A stretch of DNA of 20,501 bases from the IMG/VR virus record IMGVR_UViG_3300030101_002406, positions 328 to 20,828 of that record. One strand, given 5' to 3'. A model generated the notes under the pieces. The model was not told where the DNA came from, searched no databases, and worked only from the letters and a program-made list of their open reading frames with translations. Below, in pieces: positions 8,720-11,651 of the stretch. Position 1 is the stretch's first letter. The number at the start of each line of letters is the position of its first letter. The position numbers and the translations under genes are program-made. The DNA comes from a virus.

Positions 8720-8915
8720 TTGTACACGTTCAAGTCAGGCGAGATCAGTATAGCTTAACTACTTGAATCAGGGGGGTGGGTAGTTGCAACATACAATTCC
8801 TACTGCGAGACTTTGGTTAGTACGATTAATGAAACCCAAAGTTGTTTGAAACCTATGCGTAAGATCAGCTATGTTAGGCCATTATATACACGTCTAATAT
8901 CCTTACGCATCAGCC
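8720..8915 (+). ncRNA. Large structured untranslated RNA element
   Basis: The 236-bp gap between the genes at 8709 and 8946 has no ORF of note but several nested stems: TTCAAGT/ACTTGAA (8729-8735 with 8761-8767), GGTAG/CTACT (8779-8783 with 8800-8804), ACTTTGG/CCAAAGT (8810-8816 with 8836-8842), and the long-range ATGCGTAAG/CTTACGCAT (8855-8863 with 8902-8910), which encloses ATGTTAG/CTAATAT (8871-8877 with 8894-8900). A G-rich 14-mer (8767-8780) is nearly identical to one opening the RNA domain at 9640. It could be a riboswitch-like leader of the next two micro-genes, or a free-standing RNA. No known class is recognised. Confidence 0.65.
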
Positions 8916-8945
8916 CGAATAGTAACAATTAAATGGAGGAAAACT

Positions 8946-9159: not shown

Positions 9160-9190
9160 ACCCCCTTGTAGAAATACAGGGGGGTTTTTT
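9160..9190 (+). terminator. Strong rho-independent terminator
   Basis: ACCCCCTTGTA (9160-9170) pairs with TACAGGGGGGT (9175-9185) around a GAAA tetraloop, 11 pairs including one G-T, leading into a run of six T (9185-9190). It closes the 8503-9128 unit. Confidence 0.93.
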
Positions 9191-9192
9191 AT

Positions 9193-9221
9193 TTGACCTA
9201 TACAATTATTTAATGTACTGT
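9193..9221 (+). promoter_or_regulatory. Promoter with TACTGT -10
   Basis: TTGACC (9193-9198), 17 bp, TACTGT (9216-9221). It starts two bases after the terminator's T run. The predicted start near 9228 is 22 nt upstream of the gene at 9250. The -10 and the GTACTGTGT context are the same as at 8450-8478. Confidence 0.65.
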
Positions 9222-9249
9222 GTAATTACTTTAAAGGAAGGAAACACAT

Positions 9250-9549
9250 ATGTCGTTAGAAAACATAGAAGCAAACACACACGATACACCTACAGTTGAT
9301 ACTACCCACGAGTTAAAGTGGAAGAGAACTGTACGTAGACATGCGATTAATATTCTTGCTCTGATTGAGAATGATGGGAAACCTACCCAGAAGATGAACT
9401 ATCAGATAAGAAAATTGCATGAGGCCTTTACCTATTGGAACAGTGACGTGGCAACGTGGGTCAAGCATAGATTAGTCTTACCGACTACTCAGCCTGTACC
9501 ACAGACCGAGTTACAAAAGCCAGAGGTAGATCCTATCAAAATGGATTGA
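9250..9549 (+). CDS. Protein of unknown function, 99 residues
   Basis: The start ATG at 9250 has an AAGGAAGGAAA ribosome site. The N-terminal 20 residues are acidic and Thr-rich (MSLENIEANTHDTPTVD). Residues 23-75 form a basic, Trp-containing helical region with LKWKRTVRRHAINILALIE and MNYQIRKLHEAFTYWNS. The C-terminus is Pro/Gln-rich and probably unstructured. I recognise no family. The basic helices allow nucleic-acid binding, which is inference. It lies alone between the promoter at 9193 and the terminator at 9576, and its stop codon overlaps the TTGACA of a further promoter. Confidence 0.8.
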   Translation: MSLENIEANTHDTPTVDTTHELKWKRTVRRHAINILALIENDGKPTQKMNYQIRKLHEAFTYWNSDVATWVKHRLVLPTTQPVPQTELQKPEVDPIKMD

Positions 9550-9574
9550 CATACTCAATCTTAAGTGTTATAAC
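9546..9574 (+). promoter_or_regulatory. Near-consensus promoter firing into a terminator
   Basis: TTGACA (9546-9551), 17 bp, TATAAC (9569-9574): a perfect -35 and a five-of-six -10. The -35 overlaps the TGA of the preceding gene. The expected start (about 9581) falls on the 5' arm of the hairpin at 9576-9611. Transcripts must read through to reach the RNA elements and the gene at 9895, or end as an RNA of about 30 nt. Confidence 0.7.
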
Positions 9575-9575
9575 T

Positions 9576-9611
9576 AAAGGGTAGTCAGCGAGAGTTGGCT
9601 ATCCTTTTTTT
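9576..9611 (+). terminator. Terminator/attenuator hairpin
   Basis: GGGTAGTCA (9579-9587) pairs with TGGCTATCC (9596-9604), nine pairs including two G-T, with loop GCGAGAGT and seven T (9605-9611). AAA before the stem pairs with the first T residues. It ends the gene at 9250-9549 and may attenuate the promoter at 9546. Confidence 0.85.
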
Positions 9612-9639
9612 GTAATGGCTGTTTAACAATACTTTACAG

Positions 9640-9698
9640 ATCAAGGGGGTGGGCCATGTGATGAGCATCACTATAAGTTAATTAACTATGGCCCATCT
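9640..9698 (+). ncRNA. Three-way-junction RNA element A
   Basis: The outer stem pairs 9647-9657 with 9688-9698 (core GGGCCAT/ATGGCCC, 11 pairs with two G-T). Inside, a hairpin GTGAT-GAGC-ATCAC (9658-9671) is followed by TATA and by AGTTAATTAACT (9676-9687). Element C has the same plan with different outer and third-stem sequences that still pair, while the inner hairpin is almost unchanged. The element begins with the 14-mer ATCAAGGGGGTGGG. Confidence 0.72.
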
Positions 9699-9703
9699 AA
9701 AAC

Positions 9704-9752
9704 GGGGGTGGTATGCAGGTACCGATAAAACAACCAATGCAACACCACCCTT
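9704..9752 (+). ncRNA. G-rich stem RNA element B
   Basis: GGGTGGT (9706-9712) pairs with ACCACCC (9744-9750), extendable by two G-T pairs. Inside, GCAGGT (9715-9720) can pair with ACC...TGC (9733-9735, 9738-9740) leaving two bulged A. Its 3' side CCACCCTTTAAA is shared with element C. It lacks the conserved GTGAT hairpin of A and C. A run of six T follows nine bases after the stem, so it may also act as a weak terminator. Confidence 0.6.
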
Positions 9753-9805
9753 TAAACCTTTTTTGTTTGCCCTGTACTACGTCCTAAGACAATAGCTACA
9801 TCACA

Positions 9806-9871
9806 ATCAAGGGGGGTGGACTATGTGATAGCATCACTAGAAGATAGTCAGCTGACTATGTGTCCACCCTT
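9806..9871 (+). ncRNA. Three-way-junction RNA element C
   Basis: The outer stem GGGTGGAC (9814-9821) pairs with GTCCACCC (9862-9869), extendable by G-T pairs. The inner hairpin GTGAT-AGC-ATCAC (9825-9837) is nearly identical in sequence to that in element A, and the third stem is the palindrome ATAGTCAGCTGACTAT (9844-9859). It ends 23 bp before the gene at 9895, so it is probably its 5' leader. It is preceded by the shared G-rich opening motif. Confidence 0.72.
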
Positions 9872-9894
9872 TAAAATTAATCAACGGAGGAAAT

Positions 9895-10332
9895 ATGATA
9901 TACGCAGATATACAGCATGGTAAGGTATCAGATTTTATTATAACACTGATGACACAAACCAAAGCTAAGAAGATCCGAGCAGGATTTATAAAAAAAGATG
10001 GTAGCTACAGAGTAGGTAAGTTTGATTTGAAACACAGAAAAACTTGGAAACAATTAGATGGCACCATGTATAAACGTAAAGGTAAGAAGAGAACCACAAA
10101 CCCAGATGAGAATATACTTGTGCATGACCTTGTTAAAAAAGCACCGAGGAATATTCCTGTATCTAGATTGTTATGGTTCAGTGTAGGTAAAAAGATATAC
10201 AAAGTACAAAAGATAAAAGATGATAATACCAGTAGAATATTTATGTTCGAGAGAGTTAAGTTTAATCATCTAAAAATATTAATGAGTACAAAAGAAATCA
10301 ACGCTAAGTTTGGTTTAAAGTTTTTACACTAA
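9895..10332 (+). CDS. Basic protein downstream of tandem RNA elements, unknown
   Basis: The protein has 145 residues and an excellent CGGAGG site 6 bases before the ATG. It is strongly basic (Lys-rich throughout). A segment KKIRAGFIKKDGSYRVGKFDL (split here only for reference: the FIKKDGSYR core at about residues 32-40) resembles a short beta motif, FxKKDGxxR, found in small uncharacterised phage proteins. A later part LLWFSVGKKIYKVQKI is also beta-like, so an SH3-like barrel is possible. It follows three structured RNA domains (9640-9871), so it may bind or be regulated by them. That is inference. No catalytic motif, membrane segment or cysteines are visible. Confidence 0.8.
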   Translation: MIYADIQHGKVSDFIITLMTQTKAKKIRAGFIKKDGSYRVGKFDLKHRKTWKQLDGTMYKRKGKKRTTNPDENILVHDLVKKAPRNIPVSRLLWFSVGKKIYKVQKIKDDNTSRIFMFERVKFNHLKILMSTKEINAKFGLKFLH

Positions 10333-10438: not shown

Positions 10439-10524
10439 AACTATCATATTTAATTTATTCAATTCTTATAATGTACTGGACAGTGTTATTAATTTTAACT
10501 AATAATCACTATGGTATATACTAA
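10435..10524 (+). CDS. Micro-protein with one membrane helix (29 aa)
   Basis: The ORF starts MKLSYLIYSILIMYWTVLL and ends NNHYGIY. It has a single membrane helix and overlaps the preceding micro-ORF by four bases (ATGA). A 94-bp spacer follows it; the CCCTG/CAGGG hairpin there has no T run, so I do not call a terminator. Function is unknown. Confidence 0.6.
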   Translation: MKLSYLIYSILIMYWTVLLILTNNHYGIY

Positions 10525-10618
10525 CCCCCCCTGCAACGACAGGGTACCTTATCATAGATCCGATTAAAATTCAATGCGTCATGTTGACCAAATAAAAAAA
10601 TTATGTTATTGAGGTAGT

Positions 10619-10924: not shown

Positions 10925-11019
10925 AAAAACTAATTAGTAAAATAAATGTATGGTCATTGTATTATAGAACAGAGATTGTCTGGTTTACCATTGGCCTTGT
11001 AGTAGGGATTATATTGTGA
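10921..11019 (+). CDS. Micro-protein with one membrane helix (32 aa)
   Basis: The ORF encodes MKKLISKINVWSLYYRTEIV followed by a membrane helix WFTIGLVVGIIL at the C-terminus, a tail-anchored layout with a basic cytoplasmic part. It overlaps the genes on both sides by four bases (ATGA at the start, GTGA at the end), which strongly suggests it is translated. Function is unknown. Confidence 0.68.
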   Translation: MKKLISKINVWSLYYRTEIVWFTIGLVVGIIL

Positions 11020-11651
11020 GAATAAAAGAATTAGAAAAAAAGATAGGCACACTATCAAACCCTAGTAAGATGCCCTCTTATGCGTGGGGTATATCAGCAA
11101 AGAAATGTATTACTGGCAGTAAGTTAGCAAAGATCCCAGGTACTATTTGTAATAAATGTTATGCACTCAAAGGCCATTATGCTTTTAGAAATGTATTTGA
11201 TGCCCATGAGATAAGACGTAAGGCCATAGAGTTACCAGAGTGGGTAGATTATATGTCAGAACTATTGACCTTAAAGTATAAAAACCTAACAAAATCAAGG
11301 AGATACCACAGGTGGTTTGACTCTGGGGATATACAATCCTTTGCACATTTAATGAAGATATTCGAGGTGTGTGAGTTGACACCACATATAAGATACTGGT
11401 TAGCAACAAGAGAGTATCAGTTTATAAAAAATATTAAAGAAGAAGATGTGCCAAAGAATTTATGTTTGCGTGTATCAGCAATAAAAGTAGATAGCCCACC
11501 ACCTAGTTTTTGGAAGTGGACATCTGGTGTACACAAAGATAAAAAAGCAATAGGTAGAGAATGTCCTGCTTACAAACAAGATGGTGAGTGTGGTAGTTGT
11601 CGTTCCTGTTGGAATCGTAAAGTTAAACAAGTAAGTTATAAGGAACATTAG
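11016..11651 (+). CDS. Gp88-like cysteine-rich protein
   Basis: The protein has 211 residues with a GTG start that overlaps the previous stop. Cysteines fall in two groups: C31 and C45-x2-C48 in PGTICNKCYALKGHY, and C183, C192, C195, C198 in RECPAYKQDGECGSCRSCW. A conserved middle motif RWFDSGDIQS (99-108) and LRVSA (151-155) follow the pattern of phage Gene-product-88 type proteins, which also recall the Cys-x3-CYA proteins of the DUF5131/Gp37 group. The clusters suggest bound iron-sulfur or zinc and a TIM-barrel-like enzyme, but no activity is established. It heads the run of replication-associated genes. Confidence in the family is good, in the function low. Confidence 0.8.
   Translation: MRIKELEKKIGTLSNPSKMPSYAWGISAKKCITGSKLAKIPGTICNKCYALKGHYAFRNVFDAHEIRRKAIELPEWVDYMSELLTLKYKNLTKSRRYHRWFDSGDIQSFAHLMKIFEVCELTPHIRYWLATREYQFIKNIKEEDVPKNLCLRVSAIKVDSPPPSFWKWTSGVHKDKKAIGRECPAYKQDGECGSCRSCWNRKVKQVSYKEH

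Follow-up and report, generated by a model that had tools for sequence, protein, structure and literature searches.

Exchangeable cassettes of putative structured RNA in a gene leader of HMO-2011-type pelagiphages

Structured RNA between a promoter and a ribosome-binding site (RBS), with a terminator hairpin within the leader, is an arrangement that the leaders described here share with the 5′-leader RNAs and riboswitches collected in Rfam; here, in contrast, the terminator precedes the variable domain and dozens of unrelated cores occupy one position. Early-transcript leader RNAs that differ between phages are also familiar from the nut/boxB and put leaders of lambdoid phages, where nut variants go with their N protein and put elements are few and conserved, whereas in the present leaders unrelated cores precede near-identical proteins. 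The P4/P1 immunity RNAs and RNAI/RNAII of ColE1 are short structured RNAs that exist as discrete alleles and diversify under selection, and discrete short structured RNA alleles are likewise found here, but the 22 cores compared with phage records have no antisense match there. In type III toxin-antitoxin systems and retrons a promoter is followed by a structured RNA with paired ends and a small protein gene downstream, a layout repeated in these leaders, although here a particular RNA does not go with a particular protein, and the fold predicted for the protein is WYL_2-like. Integron and CRISPR arrays hold variable cassettes between constant boundaries and grow as arrays, as the leaders do, but the cassettes here are structured untranslated RNAs and no linked recombinase or adaptation gene occurs in the data seen. 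To our knowledge, the swapping of many unrelated structured RNAs at one leader position, independently of the following gene, is found in none of the known arrangements compared, and by comparison with open-access papers the cassette-leader arrangement appears to be new. The novelty lies in the organization and not in a function; were the cassettes passive, the arrangement would be a variant of structured phage leaders.

The window analysed here (20,501 nucleotides, inside a 24-kb virus record) derives from an HMO-2011-type pelagiphage related to HTVC033P, its DNA polymerase being 87% identical to that of this Pelagibacter phage. Pelagiphages of the HMO-2011 type are common ocean phages, and a cultivated phage and host pair, HTVC033P and HTCC1062, exists for testing. 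HTVC033P is an HMO-2011-type phage that infects SAR11 and, as reported in PMC9038755, ranks among the most abundant isolates of pelagiphages; promoter, terminator and intergenic are words absent from the text of that report. The locus is the 345-nt gap that separates a 99-aa ORF (9250-9549) from a 145-aa ORF (9895-10332). A cassette is taken here to consist of a core, which would come from a shared pool, closed by a clamp with a G-rich 5′ arm and a C-rich 3′ arm. The features of the leader are as follows.

9546..9574, + strand: putative sigma70-like promoter, TTGACA-17-TATAAC, overlapping the stop of ORF 9250-9549
9576..9611, + strand: terminator-like hairpin AAGGGTAGTCA-GCGAGAG-TTGGCTATCC with GAGA tetraloop and T7 run, kept in 77 leaders
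9612..9637, + strand: module 1, a spacer module GTAATGGCTG...TTTAC, exchangeable between phages (from a sorted list of module-1 types)
9640..9698, + strand: cassette A, clamp 9647-9657/9688-9698
9658-9671, + strand: hairpin 1 of cassette A
9676-9687, + strand: hairpin of cassette A with the palindrome AGTTAATTAACT
9704..9753, + strand: cassette B, clamp GGGTGGT/ACCACCC, core TGCAGGTACCGATAAAACAACCAATGCA
9757..9804, + strand: footprint region, CCTTTTTTG (terminator 3′ half) and then a second module 1, of the type in contigs L027 and L057
9805..9871, + strand: cassette C, with the constant AATCAAGGGGGG and clamp 9814-9821/9862-9869
9825-9837, + strand: hairpin 1 of cassette C
9844-9859, + strand: hairpin ATAGTCAGCTGACTAT of cassette C
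9872..9894, + strand: constant 3′ flank TTAATCAAC and ribosome-binding site GGAGG, kept in leaders
9895..10332, + strand: gene for a basic 145-aa protein (35 K/R, 12 D/E), a WYL_2/DUF2693-like, Sm-like SH3 barrel by structure prediction

The hairpin at 9576-9611 is predicted to lie at the 5′ end of the transcript. In a BLAST search of the leader against phage records HTVC033P alone was matched, with 45 nt at the terminator-like hairpin 100% identical between the window and this isolate. Regions upstream of the homologous gene were drawn from IMG/VR contigs and HTVC033P, giving 77 distinct leaders in a set biased by its selection towards the WYL_2-like gene, and a single layout was found in all of them, the isolate included: promoter, GNRA-loop terminator hairpin, module 1, AATCAAGGGGGG, cassettes, 3′ flank, RBS and gene. 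In 71 of 73 leaders TTGAC is placed exactly −31 relative to the hairpin, and a −10 box follows; the hairpin has the consensus AAGGGYARYCA-SGAGAS-TTGGYTRYCC and is followed by a T run. Module 1 extends over about 8 to 90 nt, mostly starting with GTTT or GTAT and ending with AC or GC, and the constant AATCAAGGGGGG then precedes one to four structured cassettes, 3′ of which lie CCCC-GAAAA or CCACCC-TTTAAA, AATCAA repeats and the RBS. From the T run to the ATG the distance is 73-466 nt (median 151). A riboswitch or attenuator with its sensor upstream of its terminator was rejected, as the hairpin precedes the cassettes in the 77 leaders.

Clamps were counted by an anchored search, an unanchored one having yielded many spurious helices; 64 were detected, against 10-20 in shuffled leaders. 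At these clamps G.U pairs (22) exceed A.C combinations (9; p 0.03), and the cores occur 89 times in sense and never truly in antisense orientation, the two antisense matches representing one palindrome. The excess of G.U over A.C and the sense-only cores together favour pairing in the sense RNA; folding energy shows no excess of the + over the − strand beyond that due to composition (p 0.24).

The locus had been singled out by a sequence-only reading, which described A and C as tandem three-way-junction RNAs of a common plan, and its sequence and coordinates for the two elements proved accurate. A (9640-9698) folds at −21.3 kcal/mol (z −3.45, none of 200 dinucleotide shuffles as good), B (9700-9756) at −19.0 kcal/mol (z −2.84, 1/200) and C (9806-9871) at −25.3 kcal/mol (z −2.82, 4/200), so that all three surpass shuffled sequence in the folding-energy check that it had proposed; the region as a whole has a z of −2.34. 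All three helices of the plan, namely outer stem, GTGAT/ATCAC hairpin and self-complementary third stem, are present in the minimum free energy folds of A and of C, and the two elements are homologous. An alignment of A and C with five homologues from further contigs (n=7; three helices, 19 pairs) has 96.4% of its pair cells standard, against 92.0% in shuffles (reached by 0/500) and 35-57% when the alignment is slid. Both-sided changes with G.U intermediates between them affect 3 of the 19 pairs, among them UC..GA in the third stem of C against UU..AA in two homologues (L178 and L217), and the covariation score was reached by 9/500 shuffles. Covariation is clearest in the core family F225, with 9 both-sided cells compared with 3.7 in shuffles (0/500), whereas F2, which is 97.8% paired and also folds as an outer stem and two inner hairpins, lacks both-sided changes. 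The earlier proposal of selection for paired structure is thus borne out by the A/C covariation, the anchored clamps and F225. Its contention that the outer stems differ in sequence and nevertheless pair is right as to pairing, but the extent of the difference was overstated, as GGGCCAT and GGGTGGAC are different parts of the stem. In the correct register the stem of A reads GGGTGGGC(CAT)/(ATG)GCCCATCT and that of C GGGTGG[A/G]C/GTCCACCC, and few of the outer-stem differences are both-sided: one position varies between A-U, G.U and G-C, and there is one further change of this kind. B has, as had been noted, a similar G-rich outer stem; its clamp is of the same kind and its core, present in 11 distinct copies, forms a separate family unrelated to A/C.

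When the outer 11 nt were removed from each side of 37 elements, the inner parts had a mean z of +0.07 (A −0.68, C −0.57). Unusual stability is confined to the outer clamp, the inner cores being no better than shuffles, and a three-way junction for every element is for that reason unproven; support for a defined fold within the clamp is limited to the covarying families, A/C and F225. The cores may have tertiary contacts, a bound partner or no structure. The three-way-junction plan may apply to A and C, in keeping with their folds and covariation, but is not supported as a description of the whole repertoire, in which A and C represent a single member, present twice, among about 43 unrelated cores, most without a shown plan of this kind.

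By core sequence the inserts form about 43 mutually unrelated families, of which 41 were counted in the 77 leaders (19 singletons, 12 doubletons; Chao1, calculated by hand, about 56). Within most families the cores are >90% identical, and 14 leaders contain two to three recognized cores. Pairs of leaders share a core in 14/33 cases at >=97% protein identity, in 6/75 at 90-97% and in 28/1113 below 50%; a type III toxin-antitoxin system was rejected on the second of these figures, the RNA not being tied to the protein. The contig L002 encodes a 145-aa protein identical to that of the window, and its flanks are 99.6-99.8% identical over 1.7 and 2.1 kb, but it carries a different cassette in place of B and C. 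Other contigs carry A alone (L004), A with F5 (L005) or A with C (L007). Together with the replacement in L002, these combinations indicate that the pieces are exchanged as units. Between B and C lies CCTTTTTTGTTTGCCCTGTACTACG..., which is the terminator 3′ half followed by another module 1; judged from this order, the footprint looks like the joining of a second leader at the terminator, and 9757-9804 is a likely recombination junction. L005 has a junction of the same kind.

Outer stems also differ around the same core and still pair, as in F28, F225 and F26. The clamp of F28 is GTAGTATC/GGTGCTAC (GGTAGTATC..) against TGTGGGG/CCCCACTA in the leader of another gene (L205), that of F225 is GGGGTGGG/CCCACCCC against GTGAATAAG/CTTATTCAC in L240, and F26 has three clamps. 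Each of F26, F79, F146 and F5 is found both as module 1 and as a clamped cassette. Cores in the leaders of other genes were located at L205:2609-2666, L230:575-679, L240:469-551 and, on the minus strand, L079 2054-2128, some of them beginning directly after the −10 box. The window itself contains a further leader ahead of another gene:

8766..8945, + strand: second leader of the same kind, AATCAGGGGGG ... CCCGAATA ... RBS, from alignment with L007 and L002

This leader is G-rich, and its inner stem is ATGCGTAAG/CTTACGCAT in the window, ATGCCTTGG/CCAAGGCAT in L007, where the enclosed domain is replaced and the rest is nearly identical, and GCGTTGG/CCAACGC in L108; further copies are found in L004, L005 and L108. 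In the aligned sequences it is a case of the same cassette exchange ahead of another gene, with a compensating change in the stem.

These leaders are best explained, with about even chances that the explanation is right, as cis-acting 5′-UTR RNA domains that are exchanged by recombination and whose core identity is selected. Transcription would start at the sigma70-type promoter, placing the GNRA-loop terminator hairpin at the 5′ end of the transcript; some transcripts would end at the hairpin and others read through, the read-through mRNA carrying in its 5′ part a chain of one to four clamp-closed domains, with the RBS of an early gene directly after them. Whole domains would be swapped by recombination at the short constant stretches that bound them (CCTTTTTTG, AATCAAGGGGGG and CCCC-GAAAA-AATCAA). 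Most likely the domains would control the transcript in cis, by attenuation, by protecting the 5′ end or setting read-through, or by governing access to the RBS, and the identity of the core could be selected through, for example, recognition by a factor of the host or of a rival phage. Fast turnover of discrete cores suggests that core identity itself is selected, and the conservation of cores across phages and the stacking of several suggest that identity matters and that not just any filler will do; the cassettes are probably under diversifying selection. A leader whose structured RNAs are replaced more quickly than the genes beside it would provide dozens of new RNA families at a stroke and would suggest that early phage RNA is under a selective pressure not yet recognized.

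Against this cis-acting explanation, mosaic exchange could be neutral, mosaicism at short homologies being common in phages. It is this commonness, along with the finding that the clamp and not the inner core is unusually stable, that would fit passive 5′-UTR hairpins, in which any clamp-closed insert protects or insulates the early mRNA and the cores are neutrally swapped fillers. Fillers should decay, however, and cores keep >90% identity between phages whose proteins are <50% identical, have moved to other genes with a new clamp and, in F225 and A/C, contain hairpins that covary, which makes passive hairpins rather unlikely. Alternatively, each core may be an allele of an RNA-based recognition system serving superinfection exclusion among related phages or escape from an RNase or RNA sensor of the host, a possible if somewhat questionable role; it overlaps in part with the cis-acting and the passive explanations. 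Favouring of rare alleles would lead to a finite pool of discrete cores, stacking and rapid exchange, in keeping with the family counts and multiple-core leaders described above and with cores that are nearly unlinked from the gene phylogeny. A precedent for the sensing of phage structured RNA by host defence is provided by cabRNA and CBASS (PMC10686824). On the other hand, no target, antisense partner or sensor emerged when 22 cores were compared with 50,697 phage records, in which they match HTVC033P only, in sense orientation; promoter-like antisense matches to a loose pattern occur in 19/77 leaders, and these are accounted for by the constant flank, whose complementary strand has the sequence TTGATT. 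That several dozen discrete clamp-closed domains, common to an entire group of marine phages that are abundant and both stacked and exchanged in their early leaders, act as the specificity determinants of an allelic recognition system of untranslated RNA is put forward as a doubtful proposal; if true, the cassettes would set who co-infects or which host sensor is escaped.

Autoregulation, in which the basic, putatively Sm-like protein encoded downstream would bind to the leader, was suggested by the properties of that protein. A single gene family follows the leaders, and its 27 aligned members are strongly basic (mean net charge +16). Sequence searches of Pfam and PDB with the 145-aa protein gave no match, Pfam WYL_2 being reached by 1/27 family members at an E of only 0.092. 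The AF2 model has a modest pLDDT of 71 and no good structural match in PDB, and its matches to predicted phage WYL_2/DUF2693 proteins in BFVD have a probability of 1.00 but E values of 0.002-0.004; neither a ToxN-like nor a reverse transcriptase match was found in these structure searches. WYL/DUF2693 domains are counted among the Sm-like SH3 barrels, for which binding of nucleotides or of fragments of nucleic acid has been predicted (PMC4012209), and RNA binding by the modelled protein is plausible. Nevertheless, proteins >=90% identical are preceded by unrelated cores and the same cores lie ahead of other genes, so that autoregulation would need binding to shape only or to the clamp only and is distinctly unlikely; a sensor for the basic protein, as earlier suggested, is weakened on the same grounds, while the position as 5′ leader of the gene at 9895 is supported. 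Self-complementary loops might instead let two leader RNAs pair by kissing loops. Perfect palindromes of >=10 nt are enriched (12 against 3.65 in shuffles, p 0.002), and palindromic centres switch between AGCT, TTAA and TCGA (F2), TTAA and TCGA with a U.G intermediate (F12), GGCC and TGCA (F22), TATA and CATG (F2s) and AATT and AGCT (A vs C). Such homodimers are very unlikely even so, since self-complementarity of 4-nt hairpin loops is not significantly enriched (15 against 11.3, SD 3.5), the loop variants were chosen once the sequences had been inspected (p 0.02 under a lenient null, with 6/10 kept), and F136 and hairpin 1 of F2 are counterexamples. The enriched palindromes would also suit a DNA-level element (cruciform, protein site or mobile hairpin), but the 89:0 sense orientation, the constant position between promoter and RBS and the excess of G.U over A.C speak for RNA; an assembly artefact conflicts with the arrangement in an isolate genome and with the recurrence of the same cores in many independent assemblies. 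Either is highly improbable.

That no known RNA class had been recognized in the elements agrees with searches of the window and 20 related loci (53 kb), in which Rfam gave 0 matches at the gathering cut-off; the sub-threshold matches (E 0.16-3.3) lie outside A-C. No Rfam ribozyme family was matched in the window and these loci, a result whose reach is that of known self-cleaving ribozymes, and a tRNA/tmRNA search found none. A scan of prokaryote genomes for CAATCAAGGGGGGT was uninformative, with 119 chance-like matches and one loose candidate lacking the layout. A packaged RNA, among the roles first considered, is unsupported, and antitermination or a decoy role would be possible. Cassettes as peptide genes were rejected, as variants of B differ by a frame-changing 1-nt insertion (GGTACC/GGATTCC), and so was AAGGGGGGT as a ribosome site, which pairs well with the anti-SD (−15.3 kcal/mol) but is missing from the leaders of other genes. 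An antiterminator of AAGGGGGG with CCCTTTTTT is possible (−9.2) but would form only after the terminator is made.

Three further elements were observed around the locus. A terminator-like hairpin, ACCCCCTTGTAGAAATACAGGGGGGTTTTTT (9164-9230), is directly followed by a sigma70-like promoter, TTGACC-17-TACTGT, ahead of ORF 9250. Downstream of the WYL_2-like gene, at 10514-10543, the element GTATATACTAACCCCCCCTGCAACGACAGG followed by CATATCATA-like sequence is kept in dozens of related contigs and in HTVC033P; a palindrome near 10541 was set aside, as its palindromic character is not itself conserved. A GP88 family protein (PF17338, E 1.4e-21) is encoded at 11016-11651.
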